From a virus: 32,987 nucleotides of DNA. The notes under the pieces are model-generated. The model searched no databases. It was not told the DNA's origin and saw only the letters and a list, made by a program, of their open reading frames with translations. Made by a program: the position numbers and the translations under genes. Positions 16,368 to 30,769 of the stretch are shown in pieces (position 1 is the first letter of the stretch; every line of letters starts with the position of its first letter). Location: positions 1-32,987 of IMG/VR virus record IMGVR_UViG_3300025407_000074, one strand, 5' to 3'.

Positions 16368-16576
16368 TTCATGTTCATGAAGTTATGAGTTAAATAACCA
16401 ACGACAGAGCTAATAGCCGAAACAATGGACATACCAACCCAAAATCCGCCTTTGGATTTGTTAGCCAACTCCAGCAATTGCTCCATGCCATCTTCTAGCT
16501 TATCCACCTTTTGTGTCAAATCTTCGACTTTTTGCCAGAGTTGACCGTATTTGACCAGATCGATTTCTGAACTCAT
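16364..16576 (-). CDS. XhlA-like small membrane protein (holin accessory)
   Basis: The 70-aa protein has a coiled coil at about 10-40 (LWQKVEDLTQKVDKLEDGME) followed by one membrane helix at 44-64. This is the layout of the haemolysin XhlA family, which assists holins. It is the first gene of the lysis cluster, and its start overlaps the stop of the ejection protein by ATGA. The family call rests on layout, not on residue identity. Confidence 0.75.
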   Translation of the reverse strand: MSSEIDLVKYGQLWQKVEDLTQKVDKLEDGMEQLLELANKSKGGFWVGMSIVSAISSVVGYLTHNFMNMK

Positions 16577-18858
16577 TTTTTGCCAATCTCCGAAAGTCGT
16601 GAACCAGCGCCAGGTTTTAAAGATTCTTTTGTGGCTTTCTTAGCCGCACTTGCAGCACGTTTTTCAGCTATTGTTGTGCCTAATTGCAAGCCAGGAACAG
16701 CAACATTCAACCCTTTTTCTGCCGCCATACCAATGCCTTCACGGACATTTTGAGCCAAAGCACCTGTCAATGTGTTGGATGTATTAACAAATGAGCCTTT
16801 AGGCTGCGCTTGGGTATACCGAGCCACATTGCCCAAAGTTTTTAATTGTTGCGCTGTTTCGCCACCAACGAGCTGTTGCATCTTGGGGCTGAGTTGCTCC
16901 AAAGCCCGATTAAATCCAGCCTGGCTAAAGTTGCCATTGTTGTCAACGATGCCAGCCTTGTTTTTTAGCCAGTTAATAGTTGCAGAACGGACGTTTTGAG
17001 CCGCTTCGGAATCTGTGCCAAGCTGTTGCAGCATTGCATCCAGATCACGCTTGTTGCCGCCGATAACATATTTGTTAATAAATTTGTCTGGGGCAACGTC
17101 ATTGATGGCTGCTTGATAGGCAGGGTCTTGCTCTAGCAATTGGAAGCGTTCCCGAGCCGCTTGCCGAGCAGAATCAGCCAAAGGTTTGAGGTCTGCCGCT
17201 TCTTTAGTCAAAGGCAATTGCTCTAAAGAATCACGCACAATGCTCAAAGAACGAACGGCGTTGCCATCCCCTGCACGTTCAGCCGTACGCATAGCAGCAG
17301 CCAAGTTAGACCGCATAGCTTCAAAATTCTCATACGTCATTGGTGCGCCTTCACGATAGGCGTTTAATTGACGTTCAAAAGCTGGAGGCAAAAAGTCGGT
17401 TTTAAGTTCCTTGCCAAGGGCTGCAAACGAATTGTTAGCAAACTGTTTGGCATCAATTGGAATATCACCGCCAGCAGCATCACGCAAGGCTTTGTATTTG
17501 TCAGAAATAGCAGCACTACGTTCAGCGTCTAGTTGCTTGTAAGCATTGATGATGTTTTCTGCGTTTTCCACATGGTTGGTCGCATAAACATCAGGGGCTG
17601 CTTTGTCACGAATAGCATTGATGTTTTCCATCAATTGACCATTTTGCTCATTAAAGCGTTGAGCCAACTCAGGGTTTTTACCACGATTGTTTTGCTCTTG
17701 AGACAAGATATTTACATCTTGCGAGGCTTGCCCCTTAGTCAAACGCACAGGAACAGGCAAAGAATCGGCTTCAACGTGACGGTTCAAAGCATCCAAATTG
17801 ATGTCGCTTGCTGGCACACCACGCAATGCAGCTTGGGTTTCTGGTGACGCTTGGGCAAGCGCAGATTTGACTTGGCCTTCTTGTGAAAGCTGCGCAGCGC
17901 CAATGCTTTGTGCGCCAAAGCCAGTTTGTGGATGCGTTACGGTGTCAACAATACGGGCAGCTTCTGGCACAGCCAAACGCTCAACAGCTTGATAGCCACG
18001 ACCAACAGCACGACCAGCAGGGCCAATCGCTTCAACCGCTGGGGCAGACAAAGTGCCAATTATGTTTTGGATGTCACCGACAGGCACACCCGTCTTTTGT
18101 GAAATCCATTGTGCGCCTTTGTTGATGTTTTGACCAACGAAATCCATGATCTGGCGACCAGCTTCTTGCTGATAGCCTGGGGTCTGGGTAACGCCAAAGG
18201 TCTTGCCAAATGGTTGACCAAGCTGCTGTTCAACTTGTTGTTGGGCTGCTGCCGCTTCTTCTGGCGTATGTTGCAAAGCACGTTGACCAGCATAAGTAAC
18301 TGCGCCAGCCACGCTAGGAATAATGCTGCCAACCGTAACGTCAGCCAAGGACGCTGCGCTTTGACCAAATCGTTTTAAGTATTGACCAGCCAAATCTTGC
18401 CCTTGCTGACGTTGTGCCAACATGGTTTGCATGGATTGCGGCACATTGCTAGTTGGCGCTGGTTGCTCTTGCGTAGTTCCAGTTTGTTCCCACAAATCAG
18501 CCAAAGTGCTAGGCTTTGCTTGGGGCATCAGCGTAGTGTGAACAGGGTCTTTGCTACCCAATGGTCGATGCAAACCGAATTGCTGCAAAAAGCTATCAGG
18601 CACAGACTTGTCAATATCAACAGCCAAACCTTTTTCGTGCAAGCTAGTGCCAGGCGCAGCTACTGGATATTTGTTGCCAGACTTTGCCAATGCAGCTTGC
18701 TGTTCAGTTGTGCGAAAGCCGCTGGTAATTGGAAGTTCTTTGCCGTATTTTTGACGATAAGCATCTTGAGCTTGTGACAAAGCACTAGCCAATTGTGGGT
18801 CAAGCCCTTGCGTATTGCTAGGGGTGTCCGCTGTCCAAAGATCGGCAAGTGTAGGCAT
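16573..18858 (-). CDS. Ejection (internal virion) protein with N-terminal M15-type peptidase
   Basis: The 761-aa protein is probably packed in the head and released into the host during infection. Residues 15-112 form an M15/VanY-like zinc peptidase that would cut peptide cross-links: SGFRTTEQQAAL at 46-57, SLHEKGLAVDID (His74, Asp81) and DPVHTTL (His107). The TLADLW hexapeptide flanks the domain at 3-8 and 118-123. The long remainder is Ala/Gln-rich and helical (for example about 350-620), ending with a basic tail. It follows two other ejection proteins, as P22 gp7/gp20/gp16 cluster together. The ATG overlaps the previous stop (TAATG). Confidence 0.85.
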   Translation of the reverse strand: MPTLADLWTADTPSNTQGLDPQLASALSQAQDAYRQKYGKELPITSGFRTTEQQAALAKSGNKYPVAAPGTSLHEKGLAVDIDKSVPDSFLQQFGLHRPLGSKDPVHTTLMPQAKPSTLADLWEQTGTTQEQPAPTSNVPQSMQTMLAQRQQGQDLAGQYLKRFGQSAASLADVTVGSIIPSVAGAVTYAGQRALQHTPEEAAAAQQQVEQQLGQPFGKTFGVTQTPGYQQEAGRQIMDFVGQNINKGAQWISQKTGVPVGDIQNIIGTLSAPAVEAIGPAGRAVGRGYQAVERLAVPEAARIVDTVTHPQTGFGAQSIGAAQLSQEGQVKSALAQASPETQAALRGVPASDINLDALNRHVEADSLPVPVRLTKGQASQDVNILSQEQNNRGKNPELAQRFNEQNGQLMENINAIRDKAAPDVYATNHVENAENIINAYKQLDAERSAAISDKYKALRDAAGGDIPIDAKQFANNSFAALGKELKTDFLPPAFERQLNAYREGAPMTYENFEAMRSNLAAAMRTAERAGDGNAVRSLSIVRDSLEQLPLTKEAADLKPLADSARQAARERFQLLEQDPAYQAAINDVAPDKFINKYVIGGNKRDLDAMLQQLGTDSEAAQNVRSATINWLKNKAGIVDNNGNFSQAGFNRALEQLSPKMQQLVGGETAQQLKTLGNVARYTQAQPKGSFVNTSNTLTGALAQNVREGIGMAAEKGLNVAVPGLQLGTTIAEKRAASAAKKATKESLKPGAGSRLSEIGKK

Positions 18859-20240
18859 TATTTAATCAATCCAAGTTGTCGAGCCAATTGAATTTGTTGA
18901 GCCATTCTTTGTTGCTCTGCTGGCGACATTGATTTCTTCAGATTTGCCACTTCTTGTGGTGTCATCTCTTGCATGACTTTGGGGTCAATAGAGTTAACTT
19001 GTTGAGCAACTTGCATATAGGTTTTGGGGTCATTGATGTATTGCGACAATACATTCATCTTTTGCTGCTTGAATGATTCACCAGCAATAAGTTGATTGAC
19101 CACACCCTTAATGGCTTGTGCGTTCATCTTTTTATTGGGATTTGCAGCTTCAGCCAAAGCTCGAGCAGCATCGGTATTTCCACCAGCCAATGCCAACAAT
19201 GTGCTGTTCTTAGCCAATTCATCAGTAGCAGTTTTCTCGGCTTCGTAGGCTGGAATACCGATAGCGTTAGCAATACCAGTTGCCAATTCTTTGCGTGAGC
19301 CGCCCACGCCAGTAAATGCCTTATCAGACAAGTTACGAATGTTTTGTAGTACGCCAACACGTTGTTGGGCATTGTTGGCTTCGGTTTGGGTGTTAGTCCA
19401 ATCTTTGGTAAAGAAGTCGGCAGGGGCTTGGTTAGCAGCCGCAGCCGAGGGATTTAACCCAGTAGTCAATGGCTGATTACCACGCTGAGACATAGGGCCA
19501 AGCAATTTGGTTTCGCCAGTTGGCGTGACCACTTGAGTGGTTGGCGGCACTTGCAATTCTGTTGCTGGCCCTGCAATCGTGCCTGGTTGTTGTGCTGCCA
19601 AAAATGGGCTTCCCATAGTCATAGGAACAACCGATGCGCCAAGATTTACCGCTTGGGCGCTTGGGAATAACTTTTCTATCTGAGCTTCTGCGCTTAATGA
19701 ATTGGCAGCGTGACGGGCAATAAATGCTCGCATTTCTTTATCTGTGCCTTTTGTAGGCAAGTTTTGCAATGCCTGATTGATTGCAGCCTCGCTAGCACCT
19801 GTGTTTTTCATGGTGTCAATCGTTTGTTGACGCAATGACTCAGGGGTGATTTGCTCAGAACTATTTAGCATCTTCAGCAAATTGCGTGAAGAATTGGCAG
19901 TTTGGCTTTTGAGGTTTTCAAGTTGTGCTGAATTTAATTGCGTTTCAGCAGTTCCAGCTTGTGCTTCGCTTTGACGCAATTGAAATGGCAATTGACCAGC
20001 AGCTAACTTTTCGCCTGTCTCAGCAGTTCCGGCTTGAGCCGCAGCAGTCCGAGCCAAATAAGGGTTAACTTTTTGCGCTTGCTGCAATGCCAATTGAGCA
20101 GACTGCAACTGAACTGGGTTTAATTGCTGCGCTTGTTGATACGCTTGTGCGCTTGATGCAATATTCATCAAGTCGCCAAGCGACATTTGCTGCTGTGGCT
20201 TGATGCCTGTGGAAACTGGTGTAACGCTTAAATCAGCCAT
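18858..20240 (-). CDS. Ejection protein, Gln/Ala-rich
   Basis: The 460-aa protein starts MADLSVTPVSTGIKPQQQMS. It is dominated by Ala, Gln, Leu and Thr, as is typical of DNA-ejection proteins. An AQAGTAET motif is repeated at about 67-74 and 93-100 within a helical region. No enzyme motif is seen. AAGGAT before the ATG is a good ribosome site. It lies between the two other ejection genes, which is the main support for its role. Confidence 0.75.
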   Translation of the reverse strand: MADLSVTPVSTGIKPQQQMSLGDLMNIASSAQAYQQAQQLNPVQLQSAQLALQQAQKVNPYLARTAAAQAGTAETGEKLAAGQLPFQLRQSEAQAGTAETQLNSAQLENLKSQTANSSRNLLKMLNSSEQITPESLRQQTIDTMKNTGASEAAINQALQNLPTKGTDKEMRAFIARHAANSLSAEAQIEKLFPSAQAVNLGASVVPMTMGSPFLAAQQPGTIAGPATELQVPPTTQVVTPTGETKLLGPMSQRGNQPLTTGLNPSAAAANQAPADFFTKDWTNTQTEANNAQQRVGVLQNIRNLSDKAFTGVGGSRKELATGIANAIGIPAYEAEKTATDELAKNSTLLALAGGNTDAARALAEAANPNKKMNAQAIKGVVNQLIAGESFKQQKMNVLSQYINDPKTYMQVAQQVNSIDPKVMQEMTPQEVANLKKSMSPAEQQRMAQQIQLARQLGLIK

Positions 20241-20249
20241 GTTTTATCC

Positions 20250-21050
20250 TTAGCCATTTGAACCAAAGGTTGGCCCAACAAAACCAGATGAGCCTGGCGT
20301 GTTTTGATTTATAAAGGCGGCAGATGGTGAACCGTAACCAGGTAGATAATTTTGATTCAACAACTGAGAAAGTTGATATTGATTTCCTAACCCTTGCAAA
20401 CCACCAGCCAAAGCATTTGCCGAGCCGACTTGACCAGCGCCAGCCGCAGTAGCTGCGCCAATACCTGCTTGACCAATGTTTCCAGCAGCGTTCATACCAG
20501 CTTGATTCGTTGCTGTTTGACCTGTTTGACCGATACCAGCAATGCTTGCCAAAGTGTTATAAATGTTCTGACGCTGGCCTTGAAAGTTATTAAAAGCGTT
20601 TTGATAAGCGTTAGAGGCGTAATTTTCGCCAAAAATTTGGTTAGACCGTTGCACGTTTGAGCCGCCACCACCGACATTTCCAGCTTGTGTTCCAGCGCCA
20701 ACCCCTTGGTTCAGCATAAACTGATAATTAGGAGCAAGATTAGATTTAAGGTCTTGAGGGCCAAACTGTTGAGTTAAATAACCAGAACCTTGTTGGTCTC
20801 CGATGTAGTTGCCATTTTGGTCATACTGAGGCTGTGCGCCTCCAAGCATAGAACCGATCTGATTCAAAGCACTATAACCAGACTGCCTATAAGGGGCTTG
20901 TTGCTGATTGATAGTGTTAAATTCCTGTTGCTGCAATGCAGCAGCATTGTTAGCAGCGTTGGCCTGAGTAGCGGCAGCACTTTTTGCAGCGTTTGACTGC
21001 AATACAGAACCAAGAATTGTTGCACCAGCAGAAATAAAAGCAAATGGCAT
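20250..21050 (-). CDS. DNA injection/ejection protein, Gly/Ala/Gln-rich
   Basis: The 266-aa protein starts MPFAFISAGATILGSVLQSN and has a hydrophobic N-terminal helix. The rest is an Asn/Gln/Gly/Ala-rich body with segments such as NYQFMLNQGVGAG and NAFNNFQGQRQNIYNTLASI. This resembles a family of podovirus DNA transfer proteins that insert into the host envelope. AAGGGG precedes the ATG. It is the first of the three ejection genes in transcription order. Confidence 0.8.
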   Translation of the reverse strand: MPFAFISAGATILGSVLQSNAAKSAAATQANAANNAAALQQQEFNTINQQQAPYRQSGYSALNQIGSMLGGAQPQYDQNGNYIGDQQGSGYLTQQFGPQDLKSNLAPNYQFMLNQGVGAGTQAGNVGGGGSNVQRSNQIFGENYASNAYQNAFNNFQGQRQNIYNTLASIAGIGQTGQTATNQAGMNAAGNIGQAGIGAATAAGAGQVGSANALAGGLQGLGNQYQLSQLLNQNYLPGYGSPSAAFINQNTPGSSGFVGPTFGSNG

Positions 21051-21051
21051 A

Positions 21052-21405
21052 TCAGACCCCTTTGTGGATTAAGACTTCATCCACTTTATTAACATCAGTT
21101 TCTTCAGTCGCATGGATGCAGAACCAAACAGCATCCTCTAACGCTTCAATCGAGTGCAAAATTTCCGCTTGCATATTGATACAAGCTGGTGCGGTATAGG
21201 TCTTTTCATCATTGTCTGTTCTGACAATAACCTTACCTTTGCCCAAAATGCTTAAATGCGAGTAATTGTGGGCGTGCATTCCTGCCATGTAACCTTTGGG
21301 CAAGTGCATTTGTTTTGCATAAAGCCCATCAGAAAAGTGGTGAATAACCCCTGGGTCAACATCAAAGTGACCTAGATTTGCGTTGAACATATCAGTTGGG
21401 GTCAT
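21052..21405 (-). CDS. Small single-domain cupin
   Basis: The 117-aa protein shows cupin motif 1, GMHAHNYSHLSILGKG (42-57), with His44, His46 and His50 as likely metal ligands. Motif 2 centres on EILHSIEALE, with His84. Small cupins appear in some podovirus tail regions with no known reaction. It lies between a fibre-like gene and the injection proteins, so it may be a virion or assembly component (inference). The start overlaps the fibre-like gene by 4 bp. An in-frame Met6 is an alternative start. Confidence 0.85.
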   Translation of the reverse strand: MTPTDMFNANLGHFDVDPGVIHHFSDGLYAKQMHLPKGYMAGMHAHNYSHLSILGKGKVIVRTDNDEKTYTAPACINMQAEILHSIEALEDAVWFCIHATEETDVNKVDEVLIHKGV

Positions 21406-22127
21406 GTATATAGCGGGATGTAATACGTTGTACCGTCACAAACAACTGGAAGCCACTTAGCAATCGTAGTATGAGTGCCAGTTGTTGCTATGTTATTAGC
21501 CGTGATTGTAGATGAGGTCGTTAGCGTTGTCACGCTTGCTGACACACCAGAAACAGAGCCGCCAGTTATGGCAACATTATTAGCATTTTGGGTCGCAATC
21601 GTGCCTAAACCAAGGTTAGTTCTAGCCCCTGCTGCGGTAGATGCCCCTGTGCCGCCATTGGTAAGGTTCAAAATCCCACCAAGGGTCACAGCCCCTGTGG
21701 TCGCAGATGATGGGGTAAACCCCGTAGTGCCAGCAGAAAACGATAAAACGCCTGTATTTGAGACAGTAACCGCACCAGTAGCAGAGCTAACCCCGATGCC
21801 CGTCCCTGCGACCAATGAGGTCACACCAAGGTTATTAAGGGTAATTGACCCTGTGCCGTTGGTCACGCCGATGGCTGTTCCGGCTGTCAAAGTGTTTAGC
21901 GTGTAGCCTTTGCTATTGCCAATCAGCAGTTGCCCATTGGTTGGAGTAGTGGCGACCCCTGTGCCGCCAGAGCTTGGTGCTAAAGCATTGGCAGAGCTAA
22001 ACGAATTGACAGAAGGGTTTTGCAGCCACAAAAGCCAAGGCAAGCTCGGCATCATGGTTTGCTGGTCAATAAACGGCGTTCTAGGCCAGTTTAGATTGCC
22101 ACCAGAGCCAGAAGAAGTGACGCTCAA
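21402..22127 (-). CDS. Short fibre-like tail protein
   Basis: The 241-aa protein has a unique N-terminus (WPRTPFIDQQTMMPSLPWLL) that may attach it to the tail hub. A Gly/Thr/Ser-rich fibre repeat region follows (NGGTGASTAAGARTNLGLG at about 157-175, FSAGTTGFTPSSATTGAVTL at 130-149). It ends IAKWLPVVCDGTTYYIPLYT, a common C-terminal cap of phage tail proteins. Its repeat block closely matches one in the partial fibre gene at the right edge. The start overlaps the gp10-like gene by 4 bp. Confidence 0.8.
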   Translation of the reverse strand: MSVTSSGSGGNLNWPRTPFIDQQTMMPSLPWLLWLQNPSVNSFSSANALAPSSGGTGVATTPTNGQLLIGNSKGYTLNTLTAGTAIGVTNGTGSITLNNLGVTSLVAGTGIGVSSATGAVTVSNTGVLSFSAGTTGFTPSSATTGAVTLGGILNLTNGGTGASTAAGARTNLGLGTIATQNANNVAITGGSVSGVSASVTTLTTSSTITANNIATTGTHTTIAKWLPVVCDGTTYYIPLYT

Positions 22128-24454
22128 TTTTCAGCCCCTTCAGCCTTTAAGTTGGCAGAAACAATGACGCAGTTTACAGGGTCAGAAATAGCAACTTCAA
22201 AGATACGGTCACGAGCCCAACCCAAACGCCGCCAAATAATCCGCTTCGTATATTGGCCCACTTTGCCCATAGAAGCCCAATGCTCATTAGACCAAGTAGA
22301 GCCGCCATCGCTAGACCAACGCAGCATAGCTTGCGGGTCTTTGCCTTGACCGTTTTGTAAGCCAACACCAGGCTGAAATTGGATTTGGAACTCAGCAAAA
22401 TACTGACGTTGGAAGTCAGTCACCAGATGCGGGGCGCGGCGCAACCTACGGATTGTCGCTCCATTGTCCGTATAAACTGCATTATCCAGTTGATAGATCA
22501 TACCATTCTGATAGTCACCAACTAAATAGACATTGTTGAACAATGCACCGCAATTAGACCGATGGCGTTGGTATTGCTCACCATCCCAAGCCAGCCACTT
22601 GTGCCACATCTGTGAACGCAAGTCATAAACCCATGTCAGATTCACAGTTGGAAAAGTAACAACGTAGAACTCATGTCCATCAAGCTGATAGGTGTAAGCC
22701 ACCGCATCGCCAACGTATTGGTTCATTAAGGTCTGCTCAACAGCATGGGTAGAAATGCGCTCAAATGAGTAGCCTTTCATAACGCCAATAACTGCTTGGC
22801 CTCGGGTATCTTGAGCCACCAAAGCAAACTGCTCACCGAATCGAGCAATCGAAAAAGGTGAAACAACACCGTGTTGAAGTGAAGTGCCAGGCACACGCTG
22901 GAAAGCAAACGAAATGAAGCCAGGCACGACTGCACCCACATCAGTCCACATTTCAGAGGTAAATTCACCCAATAGAAAGACTTGGCGGTGATCGCAAATT
23001 AAACCAACCAAGGGGTCTGGTGAGCCATCCTTGTTGCCATACAAAGCATTGGACGACCAAGGTGTAACCAAAGGAATATCCCCGTTGTTCACATCCGCTT
23101 GCAGGTCAGTAGAACCCCACGCCTGAGTGCCGCCTTGGTTGTAAACAATGTAGTTATCCACAACATCGCAAGTCACAGCGCCAGTAAATGCCCCATCAGT
23201 AGAGGGCAATTTCTGGAAAGCTGGCATGGTGTAAGTAGTAGAGCCGCCAGCATTTAAAGGCGTAACTGTGTAAGAACCCAAACCTCCCACGCCAGCGCCT
23301 TGAGTTTGCAAGAAAGCCCCAATAGTTACCGATGGCGAGCCAGTAAGCACAGCGCCTTCACCAACAGCAATTTCAGTCGCCGTGATATTAAATGTTAGAG
23401 TTGACAAAGTAGCAGTAGCAACCGCCCCTGCGCCGTTCAAGGAATCAGTAATTGTGACCGATGGCGCTGTGTAGTAACCCGAGCCAGCATCAGTAATTGT
23501 CAAAGCCTCAAGCTGACCAGCCGTAGAAACCAAATCAATTGACGCATTTGTTCCTGTGGAATCACTAATTACAAGGCTTGGAGGGCTGTTATAACCCGAG
23601 CCAAAACTGTTAACTGTAATGGCAGAAATAACACCAGATGCCAAAGTAGCAGATACTGAAGCTGGATAGCCAACCCACATCAAAGTTGCTGTGCCATCAG
23701 AGGCCGAACCGCTAGTAATGGTTGGGCCAGTAGAGCCAGAAGTGCCAGCAACCGTGTAAGTGTAAAGGTTGTTGTTATAAAAGACTTGCTGCCCAACAGT
23801 AACAGCCGTAGAAGCCGCCCAAGCAGTCCCAATTGTGATCGTTGGGTTTGTATACCCAGAACCACCAGCCGTTATAGTAATGGATGTAACTGAGTTATTC
23901 ACAGCAACAGTAGCAGTCGCCGTAGTGCCGCCCGACAGACTAGGCGCAGAAATTGTTACCGTTGGCACGTTATAGCCAGAGCCAACATTTGTCAAAGACA
24001 AAGAAGCTAAATAAGTCGAGACATTCGCCGTGACTGTATAAGTAGTCGCACTTCCAACAACCCAGTAGTATCGGTTTTCACCGTCTACGATAAAAGCTGT
24101 CAGCCCACCGTAAGTCATTATGTTGTCGGTGATTGAGACTTGCCCTGTGGAAGTGGTCAGCGTTCCGACTTGGGTTGATGTGTAAGCGCCATTAACGTAT
24201 TGGATAGCCCAAACAGCATTTCCAACCACAGCAACCAGCCATTGCCCGCCAGAGAGGGTTCGCATCCCACGAACAGGGGCATTGTTAAGCTGCAAGACTT
24301 CAGTAAGCCCTGGGGTTGGATACAAAGCCACCACGCCACGCTGACCAGGCTGCTTTAAAGGGTCAATTTCAGGGTAGAAATTGATGCACTCTTGAGCTTC
24401 CTGATAGATAGAAGCAGCTTCGTAAGAAGGCCCGACAAATCCAAAATCTGCCAT
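22124..24454 (-). CDS. P22 gp10-like tail hub (DNA stabilisation) protein with inserted repeat modules
   Basis: gp10 helps plug the portal after packaging and builds the tail hub. Residues 1-135 (GFVGPSYEAASIYQEAQECI, LYPTPGL, TAFIVDGENRYYWV) and 412-776 (LVGLICDHRQVFLLGEFTSE, VYDLRSQMWHKW) match the family. P22 gp10 is 472 aa; this protein is 776. The extra part, about residues 136-411, holds four GSGY-xx-P repeats (158, 198, 285 and 324). Between the second and third lies a module, AWAASTAVTVGQQVFYNNNL to WVG (211-262), of a type seen in carbohydrate-binding tail proteins. AAGGAT precedes the ATG. Confidence 0.9.
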   Translation of the reverse strand: MADFGFVGPSYEAASIYQEAQECINFYPEIDPLKQPGQRGVVALYPTPGLTEVLQLNNAPVRGMRTLSGGQWLVAVVGNAVWAIQYVNGAYTSTQVGTLTTSTGQVSITDNIMTYGGLTAFIVDGENRYYWVVGSATTYTVTANVSTYLASLSLTNVGSGYNVPTVTISAPSLSGGTTATATVAVNNSVTSITITAGGSGYTNPTITIGTAWAASTAVTVGQQVFYNNNLYTYTVAGTSGSTGPTITSGSASDGTATLMWVGYPASVSATLASGVISAITVNSFGSGYNSPPSLVISDSTGTNASIDLVSTAGQLEALTITDAGSGYYTAPSVTITDSLNGAGAVATATLSTLTFNITATEIAVGEGAVLTGSPSVTIGAFLQTQGAGVGGLGSYTVTPLNAGGSTTYTMPAFQKLPSTDGAFTGAVTCDVVDNYIVYNQGGTQAWGSTDLQADVNNGDIPLVTPWSSNALYGNKDGSPDPLVGLICDHRQVFLLGEFTSEMWTDVGAVVPGFISFAFQRVPGTSLQHGVVSPFSIARFGEQFALVAQDTRGQAVIGVMKGYSFERISTHAVEQTLMNQYVGDAVAYTYQLDGHEFYVVTFPTVNLTWVYDLRSQMWHKWLAWDGEQYQRHRSNCGALFNNVYLVGDYQNGMIYQLDNAVYTDNGATIRRLRRAPHLVTDFQRQYFAEFQIQFQPGVGLQNGQGKDPQAMLRWSSDGGSTWSNEHWASMGKVGQYTKRIIWRRLGWARDRIFEVAISDPVNCVIVSANLKAEGAEN

Positions 24455-24463
24455 TTTTTATCC

Positions 24464-25891
24464 TTAACGGAAGAAGCCGCCGCTCAAAATCCAACCCGCA
24501 TCCTTTTGCCGCCCAACCAGCAAAGCATCTGCATACCGAGCCACTTGAGGCGGTTTCATGTTTGTGCGCTTTACAGTAGCCTTGGCATCATTGGCGTTTT
24601 TGGTAATCATCGCAATCTGGGTTTGCGAGGCTTTGCCATACATAGGCATCAAGAAATAAGCCAAGTTCCACCGCAGCGCATTGATGTAGCCTTGTGGAAG
24701 CTGGATGGTGTCGTAAAGCGAGGTATAGCTGCTAAAGATGTTGTCGGTAAACATGTGCATCTCACCCTGTGCAGGGTTAGGCCATAAGTAAATGTTACCG
24801 AGCAATTCAGTTGGCTGATAGTAAAGCGCTTTGGGCCAAGGGCCGTTCAAGGTCTTTAGACCGATCATTTCGTATTCTTCCAACGACAGCACAGCTACTG
24901 GATAGTCCAAGCCGCCATTCTGGACAGGGATGCCGTTAGAGTTTGTGTTGATACGCACAAAGCAGCTTGAAATGGTCAGAGGGCGCTGATAGTAAGCCGT
25001 GATCGGGAAAGGCGTAACAGTCCCTGTCATTGAAGTGCTGCCCACCGACTGAGAAGCAGAAATCGTGTAAGTGCCAGCGCCACCAGAGCCAGTTAATACC
25101 GCCGTGATTTTTGTGCCGCTTGTAACGCCACTTCCACTAACCACGCAACCAACACCCAGATAACCCGCAGAAACAGCACTAACAGTAAGGGTAGTCCCAG
25201 AAATAGAACCCGTAAAAGCAGGATTAGGTGTTGTAACGTAATTGTTAAGCGTGTAAGTACCTGCTTCATTGATATTCCCACCAGCGCCCGTGTTAAACGC
25301 CACAATCTGCGTTCCTTGGGCCAAGTTCATGTTCACGCCGTAGCTAGTGGTCAGATATTGACCGTTGCTGATAGCGCCAGAAGTGATGATAGGCGCATTA
25401 GCCGTGATTGATTCTTGGTTAATGAACAGCGACTGCGAAATGGTGTAAGTGCCCACACCGCCATTACCCGTCCCAAACGACAGAATAGATGTGCCGCTAG
25501 GGATAGATGCGCCAGTAATAATGCTGCCAACCTGCAAAGCACCGCTAGAAACTGACAAAATAGTCAGAGTAGAGCTATTGATTGAGCCTGTGCCAGCAAA
25601 GTTGTTGACGTTGGTGTTAGCAACAGTTAGTTGATTGCCGCTGACGTAGCCAGTAAACCCTGCGCCGATTTCACCAGTTGGGCCAATGGTGTATTGGGTC
25701 TGACCTGGCACAACAGGAAAGATGATCTCATTCTTGTAATAGACCATCATGGATTCGTTAGACCATTGATCGATCATGCCGTTCAGCATATCGAAAGCAT
25801 CTTGGGCAGCGTCAGCCGTTGGCGTTTCCCCTGCTTCCAAAGCACCAATGTCTTTTAATGCTCGGCTAATGATGTCAATTGGTTTGGTCAT
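24464..25891 (-). CDS. P22 gp4-like head-to-tail adaptor with inserted repeat modules
   Basis: gp4 binds below the portal and starts the tail hub. Residues 1-72 ([49 protein letters not shown]) and 295-475 ([47 protein letters not shown]) match the P22_Tail-4 family. P22 gp4 is 166 aa, so this protein is far longer. About residues 75-293 are inserted phage-type repeats, such as [18 protein letters not shown] and [15 protein letters not shown]. The start overlaps the upstream gene by 17 bp. Confidence 0.9.
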
Positions 25892-26269: not shown

Positions 26270-28057
26270 TTACATCGCCGCAACAACAAAGGCCAATAAT
26301 TCTTCATAGCGCACACCGAGCTGAGTATGAATTGTCAAGTTTGGAATTTCTTTTCCATTTTCATCAATATTCTGTTCAAAAACTTTTCCAGTTGAATCAA
26401 TATACCAAGTGTCAGAACAAAACAAACTATATTTTGTAGCATCTAAGCCATTAGCAGTAAATGCCGCTTGCACATCTTGAGCCGATACTCCAATGTGTGT
26501 TCTGGCGTTTGCGCCTTTTTTAGCAACAGCATCGTTAAATTTAAAGGTCTTAATCAATCCTTTAATCGCTTTGGCTGTGTTTTGTTCAGCCGTAGTCAAA
26601 GCTGCAAACTGTTGCTTTTGATTAGCATCTGATGTGTTAATAGTGCCAGTACCTGCGTAAACAACAGACCATCGATTAGAAGCGCCCCCCAAAGATTGTG
26701 TGTTGTCAGATTGAGGAGCAAACATCCCTGTATACGAAAGGTTTGCTTGTGCTGACCCTGCAACCAACTGAAGTTGTTGCTGTGTGCCACCTGAACCTTG
26801 AACAGCATTGACAGCGCCGATTTGTGAACCCGCAACTTGCAATTGAAGTTGCGAACCGCTGATGGACAAAGAGCTATCGGTGTTATTAACAATAAGAGGT
26901 ACAAGCGCATTACCTGTATTATTCGCCGCTGAAATTTGTAAATACGGCAAAGTTGGTGTTGAACTCGTAAAAATCAAATTTGCGTCACGAATAGTGGTAG
27001 TTACTGCGACCCAAGGATTGTCGGCAAATGCTTGTGTTTTACCCGCAGGAGCACCACCAGCAGAGACAAAACTGACAACTGCATTTTGATAGCAATACGC
27101 TTCAAGATACCAATACAACAATTGTTTTGCAGCAAGTCCTGCGCTGGTATATGCGTCAAAATTTACAAATCCACGGCAGTTTGTTATTTTATTTTCTTGC
27201 GATCCACTTGTGCCAGAACCTGCTGCTAAATACCAGCACACGCCGCCGTTAGGAATACCATTAACAGTTGTCCAATTATTAAGCGAGTAATTTTGCTTAG
27301 TTGGACTATCAGCATAGCAAGACACAAAACTGTTGCGGTAAGAACCTTGCAAATAGAAATTTATGTATTGGTATTCGCCGGAATAACCACCCCAACAATG
27401 AATGTTTACAAATTCGTTATTGCCACCGCCCAACAAATAAACACCAATTGGACTAAAACGGCAAATGCCATTAGTAAACATCCCATCCGAGCCAGTTAAT
27501 TTTAAACCAGCAACAGAATTGCTTGCGGGAGTAAACGAACAACTTACAAAAAAGTTGTTAAATGAAAAATCTGCACCTGCTGTATAAGTGATGCCATCGT
27601 TTTGACAATTCAAAACAGTAATGTTACTCCAAACACATCCAGCGGCATTATTGATGTGCAAACCTTTAACATTGTTGTTATTTCCGTCAATAATCACATT
27701 TTGAACAGTGCCGCTTTGCCAGTTACCATCCATGTCAAGCATATAAGTGCCAGCACTAAATCCAGACAAAGCAAGAAGGCCACCGCCGTTACCAAAAATT
27801 GATACGCTGTTTTTAAGAATAATTGTCTTGGAAATGGCGTATTTAAATGGGCCAAATTGAATTGCCCTTGAATTTCCAAACAATGTAAAAAACGATTCAG
27901 TACCATCATGCGCTGGCCCAGTCAATGAGGCGGCGTAGTCAATTGCCGCTTGGATTGCATTTGAATCATCGGTTACACCATCGCCAACAGCGCCAAAATC
28001 AGCCACGCTGATAACAGCTTGGTTAATCATTGAGTAGGATGCTTTTGTAAGTGACAT
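26270..28057 (-). CDS. Tailspike/fibre with beta-helix and S74 self-cleaving chaperone
   Basis: The 595-aa receptor-binding protein has a pectate-lyase-3-like start of beta-helix, VADFGAVGDGVTDDSNAIQA (18-37). A beta-helix body follows (VIIDGNNNNVKGLHI, WSNITVLNCQNDG). The C-terminal 120 residues are an intramolecular S74 chaperone: TSDANQK with Ser476 and Lys481 as the likely dyad, then THIGVSAQDVQAAF, and VRYEELLAFVVAAM at the end. The chaperone drives trimer folding and then cleaves itself off. AAAGGACA precedes the ATG. The body may bind or cut host polysaccharide. Confidence 0.9.
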   Translation of the reverse strand: MSLTKASYSMINQAVISVADFGAVGDGVTDDSNAIQAAIDYAASLTGPAHDGTESFFTLFGNSRAIQFGPFKYAISKTIILKNSVSIFGNGGGLLALSGFSAGTYMLDMDGNWQSGTVQNVIIDGNNNNVKGLHINNAAGCVWSNITVLNCQNDGITYTAGADFSFNNFFVSCSFTPASNSVAGLKLTGSDGMFTNGICRFSPIGVYLLGGGNNEFVNIHCWGGYSGEYQYINFYLQGSYRNSFVSCYADSPTKQNYSLNNWTTVNGIPNGGVCWYLAAGSGTSGSQENKITNCRGFVNFDAYTSAGLAAKQLLYWYLEAYCYQNAVVSFVSAGGAPAGKTQAFADNPWVAVTTTIRDANLIFTSSTPTLPYLQISAANNTGNALVPLIVNNTDSSLSISGSQLQLQVAGSQIGAVNAVQGSGGTQQQLQLVAGSAQANLSYTGMFAPQSDNTQSLGGASNRWSVVYAGTGTINTSDANQKQQFAALTTAEQNTAKAIKGLIKTFKFNDAVAKKGANARTHIGVSAQDVQAAFTANGLDATKYSLFCSDTWYIDSTGKVFEQNIDENGKEIPNLTIHTQLGVRYEELLAFVVAAM

Positions 28058-28888: not shown

Positions 28889-30769
28889 TTATTGCAAGCT
28901 AACTTGAATGTTAATAGACATTGCAGATGTGCTAGGGATAGCAACATAAAAGTTGTTATCAGGATATTGCACAGAAGTTACATAAGGAACTGAAGTTGCT
29001 GGATTGGCACAATTAACATTTAGCGTTGTGATTGAATATCCTGATGGGGGTGTCAATGTAAAAATGATACCGCCGCTTGTTGACGCAGGGACAAAGTTGT
29101 ATGTCAACTCATAAGTTTGCGTTAACGTAGAAATAAGAGTTGCGGTATTTAAAGTAAGTGTTCCTGTTGTGCCGGTTGTTTGCGCTAAAGTTGGCGCAGC
29201 AGGGACAGGGCCAGCACCAATCACTTGTTTTTGACCCGAACCGATTAGTGTCCAAGACCCAGGATTATTTATAAAAATGTTGTTTGTGCTATAAGCACTT
29301 GGAATATTTATCGAACCAGAAAAACCACTAAAGTAATTTCCAATAATTGTGTTAGAAGCTGGAGAAGTCCCGCCAGAAGTTACATTAACAAAAGTAATGG
29401 GAGTAACAGCAACATTTTCAATCCAGTTGCCAATAATTGTTCCATTAGTGCCAAGACTAATACCGTAATTGGCTGTTGATTCAATATGATTATTTATTAC
29501 TTCGTAATTTTCAATGTTTTGCAAATCAAACGCTTGGTTCATGTTTGAATTAGCATAAATCCAAGAATCACGAATTTGTAATATGTTTGTGTTAGTTAAA
29601 TAAGTTCCAGTATTTTGTCCTTGAACTACAAAGCCTGGGCCAACTTGTCCTGTAACTTGTATTCCTTCAAATACTTGTTGGTAAGTCAATTGAGGCGAAG
29701 CAGACGTTCTAAACATAATGCCGCATGACCCAGAGCCATTAGACAAAAATTGAATACGTTGCCAAAATGATTGGCAAAATCCAATAGTATCTATTGCGAT
29801 ATGGTTTAAATTGGAATAAGAACCAGAAGCATTAGCTTTAACGCTAAAGTCTGAAAATCTGTTGCCAATAGATGCGTTGTTAGCAATGGCTCTGCTAGAC
29901 ATAATAACAGGTTCAGTTGGGCTATTCATTAATAGAATAGTTGAACCCATACCGCTACCAATAAAGTTTATTACATTTTGTGGCACTCCACCACCATGCG
30001 TTGGGAAAATTAAACTGTCAACCAAATAAGTGCCAGGGGGCAAATTGATTGTTCCGCCAGATAAAGCAATTGCGTTAATAGCAGCTTGAATAGCCGCTGT
30101 GTCGTTGGTAGTTCCATTACCAGTAGCGCCAAAATCCATGACGCTAACAGACTGCTGCAACTTAGCTTGAACCGTAGTGGTTACTGCGCCTGTACCGCCT
30201 TCGTTGTAAGTAATTGCTGAGGCATTAGTGATTGTTGAGCCAGTAGCTGGCACAGCGGTAATAAAGTCAACAATTGCGCCAACATTCAAACCAGTAGTAA
30301 ATGTCACCACAGTTGCTGATGTTTCTACATAGTTTTGTCCAACGATCTGCTTCAATCCATTGACGTAAACAGCCAAGTTGTTAACGCCAGGGATGTATTG
30401 CATCGTGGTCAGCGTGAACACAGTCTGACCAGATGTAGCTACAAAGGTTTGCTCTTGCAGCGAGTAAGCTACATAGCCAGAATTGATGCCAAGGATGTTG
30501 TCCCATGAGCCAATCTGCACACCAGCAGAGGTTTGAAGCACAAACTTGTAAGACACGCCACCAGACAGCCAGATTTCGCCTGGCACACGACCAGAAGCGT
30601 CCAAAACGATTGGGTTTGGCTGTTGAATATTGCCGCTGGTGCTGGTAAACGTAGGCGCTTGAGTGGTCGTGCCAGCCAAGTAAGAATAAAGCAGACCGCC
30701 AGCTAAAGGATTGCCGTTATTGTCAAAGAATTGCCCTGCTACGCCGCCAATGGGTGATAAATAAACCAT
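28889..30769 (-). CDS. Tailspike with head-binding domain and pectate-lyase beta-helix
   Basis: The 626-aa protein has an N-terminal particle-binding domain (GQFFDNNGNPLAGGLLYSYL at 12-31, SGGVSYKFVLQT). A second small domain spans about 105-175 (FVATSGQTVFTLTTMQYIPG, VYVNGLKQ). From 208 a beta-helix starts with the pectate_lyase_3 motif VMDFGATGNGTTNDTAAIQA and contains many N-rich turns. There is no S74 domain. The C-terminus (about 520-626) looks like a beta-sandwich. It probably recognises and perhaps degrades surface polysaccharide. AGGAAG precedes the ATG. Confidence 0.9.
   Translation of the reverse strand: MVYLSPIGGVAGQFFDNNGNPLAGGLLYSYLAGTTTQAPTFTSTSGNIQQPNPIVLDASGRVPGEIWLSGGVSYKFVLQTSAGVQIGSWDNILGINSGYVAYSLQEQTFVATSGQTVFTLTTMQYIPGVNNLAVYVNGLKQIVGQNYVETSATVVTFTTGLNVGAIVDFITAVPATGSTITNASAITYNEGGTGAVTTTVQAKLQQSVSVMDFGATGNGTTNDTAAIQAAINAIALSGGTINLPPGTYLVDSLIFPTHGGGVPQNVINFIGSGMGSTILLMNSPTEPVIMSSRAIANNASIGNRFSDFSVKANASGSYSNLNHIAIDTIGFCQSFWQRIQFLSNGSGSCGIMFRTSASPQLTYQQVFEGIQVTGQVGPGFVVQGQNTGTYLTNTNILQIRDSWIYANSNMNQAFDLQNIENYEVINNHIESTANYGISLGTNGTIIGNWIENVAVTPITFVNVTSGGTSPASNTIIGNYFSGFSGSINIPSAYSTNNIFINNPGSWTLIGSGQKQVIGAGPVPAAPTLAQTTGTTGTLTLNTATLISTLTQTYELTYNFVPASTSGGIIFTLTPPSGYSITTLNVNCANPATSVPYVTSVQYPDNNFYVAIPSTSAMSINIQVSLQ

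Follow-up and report, generated by a model that had tools for sequence, protein, structure and literature searches.

Interchangeable module cassettes at one propeller loop of P22 gp10-type phage tail hubs

The long insert in the tail hub protein encoded by the stretch of phage DNA analysed here (32,987 nucleotides, positions 1 to 32,987 of IMG/VR virus record IMGVR_UViG_3300025407_000074; hereafter the window) really does belong to a set of several cassettes that related phages exchange at a single loop of this protein. The insert is not a one-off, since the same loop is filled in 75 of the 210 distinct hub proteins compared in this work (the window hub included), with inserts ranging from 69 to 404 amino acids (aa) in length. 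The whole of the evidence presented below is best explained by an exchangeable surface cassette on the hub, with a loop that faces outward and weak contacts with glycans, and we regard this explanation, taken in full, as reasonably probable.

The hub body and the boundaries of its insert

The hub gene (22124–24454, minus strand) encodes a 776 aa tail hub or head-closure protein of the P22 gp10 type, and the body of this protein is a member of the P22 gp10 family, which it resembles in its sequence profile (PHROG 578 and Pfam PF11134), in its predicted propeller and in the gp4-type adaptor gene that adjoins the hub gene. PHROG 578 (head closure Hc3) matches the hub at 1.6e-90, in pieces that skip the insert, and the Pfam model PF11134 (Phage_stabilise) scores 44.5 bits, against a cut-off of 25, on the part of the hub that follows the insert (its C-terminal half); a Pfam search with the full-length hub protein gave no report of Phage_stabilise. 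The AlphaFold2 (AF2) model of the hub contains a confident beta-propeller at residues ~50–132 and over much of residues 413–665, and its six best Foldseek matches are P22 gp10 (three entries), Sf6 gp8, and the counterparts of these proteins from Pan3 and Pam1 (E 5e-16 to 7e-10). The adaptor gene is located upstream of the hub gene and a gene for a DNA-ejection-type protein downstream, together with a needle-position gene which is placed by its position and N-terminal motif only. At the cassette loop the P22-type gp10 (472 aa, as read from phage ST104) lacks any insert, whereas the window hub adds 275 aa.

The hub body consists of an N-terminal part, residues 1–134 (24053–24454, minus strand), which was delimited by alignment, includes the first propeller strands and was modelled with pLDDT values of 71–95 in blocks 51–130, and of residues 412–776 (22124–23221, minus strand), on which the PF11134 match is found. 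The exchangeable cassette located between them (site II, residues 135–411; 23222–24052, minus strand) was delimited by the break in nucleotide identity to the nearest relatives of the window and by the survey of the 210 hubs. An initial annotation, made from the DNA letters and their open reading frames, had proposed that the gp10 body is split at about residue 135 and resumes at about residue 412 around a 275-residue insertion, and that this insertion carries four GSGY-x2/3-P repeats (at residues 158, 198, 285 and 324) interrupted by a WAAS-type module at residues 211–262. All of these features have been recovered: DNA identity with the closest relatives ends at window position 24054 and restarts at 23221, alignment with an insert-less relative gives the same extra length of 275 aa, the GSGY motifs start at precisely these four residues with a proline 2–3 residues after each, and the module (residues ~204–262, its WAAS motif starting at residue 212) is nested in the second of the repeat units. 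In the full-length model the propeller body was predicted confidently, but the GSGY arms were of low confidence. The alignment for this run contained fragments of the insert that were aligned to the hub body instead of the insert, and as a result no fold was obtained for residues 136–410 and the model of the body falls short of its potential quality.

A loop at which related phages swap cassettes

Our collection of hubs comprises 315 loci and 212 distinct proteins; the comparison covered those no shorter than 400 aa, which number 210 when the window hub is counted in. Of the 210 hubs, 116 are without any insert of at least 20 aa, and inserts of this size in the other hubs are confined to three loops (viz. 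core 117, core 130–141, and core 412–421), with none elsewhere in the 210 proteins. The core 130–141 loop is the one that is filled, with one cassette or another, in the window and in 74 other hubs; inserts of 20–47 aa are present at core 412–421 in 58 hubs, and core 117 carries an insert in 2 hubs. The nearest relatives of the window (loci L001–L006 and L080) share ~90–95% DNA identity with it up to both junctions and hold a different cassette of ~70 aa between them; hence, the loop at residues 135–411 represents a swap site. In other relatives that bear inserts, the main filler of the loop is a module of ~65 residues, referred to here as the FTGS module, which is present in 70 hubs.

A tree based on the C-terminal core places both the window and L001 within a largely insert-less clade, well apart from the clade in which long inserts are the rule. 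GSGY-type units were identified by profile in seven other hubs (the profile matched 1 of 1500 shuffled inserts), where they may sit within a module of another type, as in L120. The GSGY-bearing hubs that were placed on the tree (viz. L120, L048, L152, and L133) all belong to this long-insert clade, separate from that of the window. Separate gains of the GSGY units are therefore favoured, and they are the simplest reading of a tree which alone cannot tell gains from losses.

A further question concerns whether the insert could have arisen as an assembly chimera, in which a podovirus hub gene was joined to one from a different phage that lives in a similar type of water. A search for a second record with the exact window cassette in a hub found none, and the closest relative of the first half of the cassette is a T4-type neck protein (L085), to which it is ~50% identical; both of these observations are in keeping with a chimera. 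However, the reading frame is intact across both junctions, the junctions match the natural swap site, and at ~50% the protein identity with the donors that were found is not high enough for the two genes to have had assembly words in common. We consider a chimera unlikely, and would assign it only a very small share of the probability. In the BFVD, the model of the insert matches two more gp10-type proteins, A0A8S5REC6 (E 3.6e-4) and A0A6J5TA46 (E 9e-3), and the window is therefore probably not the sole hub of this sort.

Modules of the cassette and their relatives

The cassette contains four GSGY units, all on the minus strand, that are recognised by a unit profile: unit 1 at residues 141–183 (23906–24034; 3.2e-14), unit 2 at residues 182–208 (23831–23911; 1.6e-8), which is interrupted by the WAAS module, unit 3 at residues 268–309 (23528–23653; 4.7e-16), and unit 4 at residues 310–351 (23402–23527; 8.5e-17). 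The four units of the window are among the 11 seeds of this profile, and the recovery of four copies in the window hub (E 1.6e-8 to 8.5e-17) is for this reason a matter of consistency rather than of discovery. When the insert was shuffled 20,000 times, three or more GSGY motifs were obtained in none of the shuffles and two in 3 shuffles. No relevant publication on GSGY repeats in phages emerged from a literature search, and an NCBIfam search gave no match to the curated models. The remainder of the cassette is a C-terminal module (residues 352–411; 23222–23401, minus strand) that is alignable with the short cassette of L001–L006. To the eye this module looks like the FTGS module, but the FTGS profile does not recognise it and thus lends no support to its inclusion in that type.

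The WAAS module (residues 204–262; 23669–23845, minus strand) is a small predicted beta domain with a chitin-binding-domain-like fold, and in an AF2 run on the insert alone it was the sole part that was resolved (pLDDT mostly 89–95), the GSGY arms again being of low confidence. Foldseek aligns it with the receptor-binding domain of the Pam1 tailspike (7eea) at an rmsd of 1.4 over 55 columns with 42% identity (E 0.03), and with the chitin-binding domain 1ed7 at an rmsd of 0.7 over 29 columns (TMt 0.61), but in the latter case with an E value of 5.8. A profile of the module finds 7eea at 7.6e-10 and proteins bearing CBM5/12 domains at 7e-4 to 6e-3. The likeness to CBM5/12 (the ChBD of chitinase A1) comprises a putative common fold of ~30 residues and a weak profile match, whereas the score of 18.3 bits is below the Pfam cut-off of 26.2 and the chitin-binding Trp of CBM12, which we take to be Trp687 in chitinase A1, is absent, its position being a gap in the profile of the WAAS module. 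Of the earlier description of this module as carbohydrate-binding-like, the predicted fold and the distant sequence relationship stand and family membership does not; the WAAS module is a probable fold relative of CBM5/12 and not a member of that family. The Pam1 domain (7eea, residues ~491–566), to which the module is alike in sequence and in predicted fold, has been proposed to recognise the extracellular polysaccharide of the host (PMC9382816); it belongs to a tailspike in Pam1, whereas in the window its counterpart is nested in a GSGY unit of a hub.

The modules of the cassette are also found in other phage proteins. The insert alone is matched by 15 PHROG families, mostly of connector, baseplate, fibre and virion proteins, and the nesting of a WAAS module in a GSGY unit recurs in L081, which is a virion protein of marine origin, and in the T4-type neck protein of L085. 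In L085, two neighbouring genes (421–1716 and 1717–2781) encode T4-type neck proteins with GSGY units in both and the WAAS module in one, and a T4-type tail sheath protein (L086, 3638–4888) carries several GSGY units beyond the N-terminal region. The distribution of the modules may alternatively reflect spreading passengers, that is, glycine-rich beta modules which recombine into any tolerant surface loop and have little effect on the phage. Their occurrence over unrelated structural proteins, the nesting of modules in modules, and the variation of three loops of one protein are all consistent with passengers; however, the GSGY-x-P core and the WAAS fold are kept across distant phages, which suggests selection on the modules, and a whole clade retains long insertions. 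We hold passengers to be a less probable but serious account of the cassette.

In their presence in many structural proteins and their exchange between close relatives, the modules resemble the Ig-like accessory domains of phages, which have been described as promiscuous (Fraser et al., 2006, as cited in PMC10684548). Shuffling of domains among phage proteins is itself documented, neck passage structures being one of the examples (PMC10684548). The cassette modules differ from the Ig-like domains in that a Pfam search with the insert, read up to an E value of 1, brought up no Ig family, in that the set of modules is another one, and in that the swap site is a propeller loop of the hub. Neither the GSGY nor the WAAS module was matched above cut-off by a curated Pfam or NCBIfam model in this work, and both could be given names and profile models that apply to a wide range of phage structural proteins.

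Position of the loop and candidate role of the cassette

In the AF2 model the insert comes after strands 107–113, 117–124, and 127–132, which would correspond to blade 3 by counting only. Cryo-EM studies of T7 gp12, the SU10 nozzle, and the crAss001 muzzle protein gp44 have described extra domains that are set into propeller blades 2–3 and lead to distal parts of the tail (PMC6702177, PMC9509320, PMC10172136). The inserted domains of these hubs are of other kinds and their positional equivalence to the cassette is one of strand order and not of superposition; between T7 gp12 and the window hub no sequence alignment was detectable. The premise of the initial annotation that a hub is normally not involved in receptor binding is too strong in view of these three hubs, and the surprise attached to the insert is weakened because hubs with inserted distal domains were already known. 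Hubs that bear host-side domains have precedents, and the cassette is an unusual variant of a known phage decoration. The loop tolerates from 0 to 404 residues of unrelated sequence, which it could hardly do if it were buried, and an exposed position of the cassette is thus most likely, being the most economical reading.

P22 gp10 is a hexamer. By analogy, six copies of the cassette would ring the tail of the window phage near the needle and the tailspikes, each in a propeller-domain loop that relatives leave empty or fill with other cassettes and that probably faces the outside or the distal end of the hub. The window cassette is built of GSGY repeats and a chitin-binding-domain-like fold, both of which recur in many phage structural proteins. 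The cassettes may make weak, many-fold contacts with glycans of the cell surface and so help the tail to settle on its host. Swapping of cassettes would then tune the glycan contact, and the main receptor specificity would stay with the tailspikes. We infer this role in glycan contact tentatively, as the likeliest one for the cassette, and put its chances at slightly short of even. Among close relatives the loop is variously empty, short or long, which amounts to a natural experiment on what hub decorations do.

The cassette may instead be a structural part without a direct host ligand, one that braces the tailspikes, fibres or needle, or that extends the nozzle after attachment in the manner of the SU10 nozzle domains. 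In T7, a blade 3 loop is the point at which the nozzle tip emerges from the propeller (PMC6702177), fibre and tailspike genes are located near the hub gene in the window, and a purely structural role is kept in play by the occurrence of homologous modules in sheath and neck proteins that have no known receptor role. However, more than half of the relatives manage without any insert of 20 aa, the unrelated cassettes of 69–404 aa that occupy the same place are hard to fit to one fixed docking role, and the closest match of the WAAS module is a receptor-binding domain. A structural part is in our judgement a less likely but serious rival, and an exchangeable surface cassette is the reading that we prefer.

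The adaptor shows the same kind of modular variation as the adjoining hub. This gp4-type protein (475 aa; 24464–25891, minus strand; SU10_adaptor 28.7 bits, cut-off 27) has a variable loop of its own, in which a profile identifies three FTGS modules of ~65 residues (residues 101–163, 169–221, and 226–290; 25022–25591, minus strand). FTGS modules were found in 1–3 copies in all 78 of the gp4-type adaptors examined in relatives. A bolder and doubtful proposal is that neck and hub together constitute a second host-contact layer, independent of the spikes, in which one propeller loop of gp10 and one loop of gp4 are supplied from a common stock of small beta modules that also feeds the necks, sheaths and baseplates of T4-type phages, with cassettes being swapped to retune adsorption. 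If our preferred reading of the hub cassette is right, part of the variation in host contact among short-tailed freshwater phages would reside in the connector proteins, away from the spikes on which host-range prediction concentrates.

Several other features of this region were observed. A record from another sample (L053, 1–4806) is 100% identical to window positions 18127–22932 and has its start within the hub gene, on the downstream side of the cassette. The position of the P22 needle gene is taken by a gene (21402–22127, minus strand) for a 241 aa fibre-like protein with an N-terminal PFID..PSLPWLLWLQNP motif that is common to several relatives. The last ejection-protein position is occupied by a 761 aa protein (16573–18858, minus strand) with an N-terminal VanY/peptidase M15 domain, and on account of this domain and position the protein is predicted to be a likely virion-borne peptidoglycan enzyme. 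Upstream of the adaptor gene are two genes for spikes or fibres with a pectate-lyase fold (26270–28057 and 28889–30769, minus strand), one of which ends in an S74 intramolecular chaperone, and in this spike or fibre region the close relatives differ from the window.
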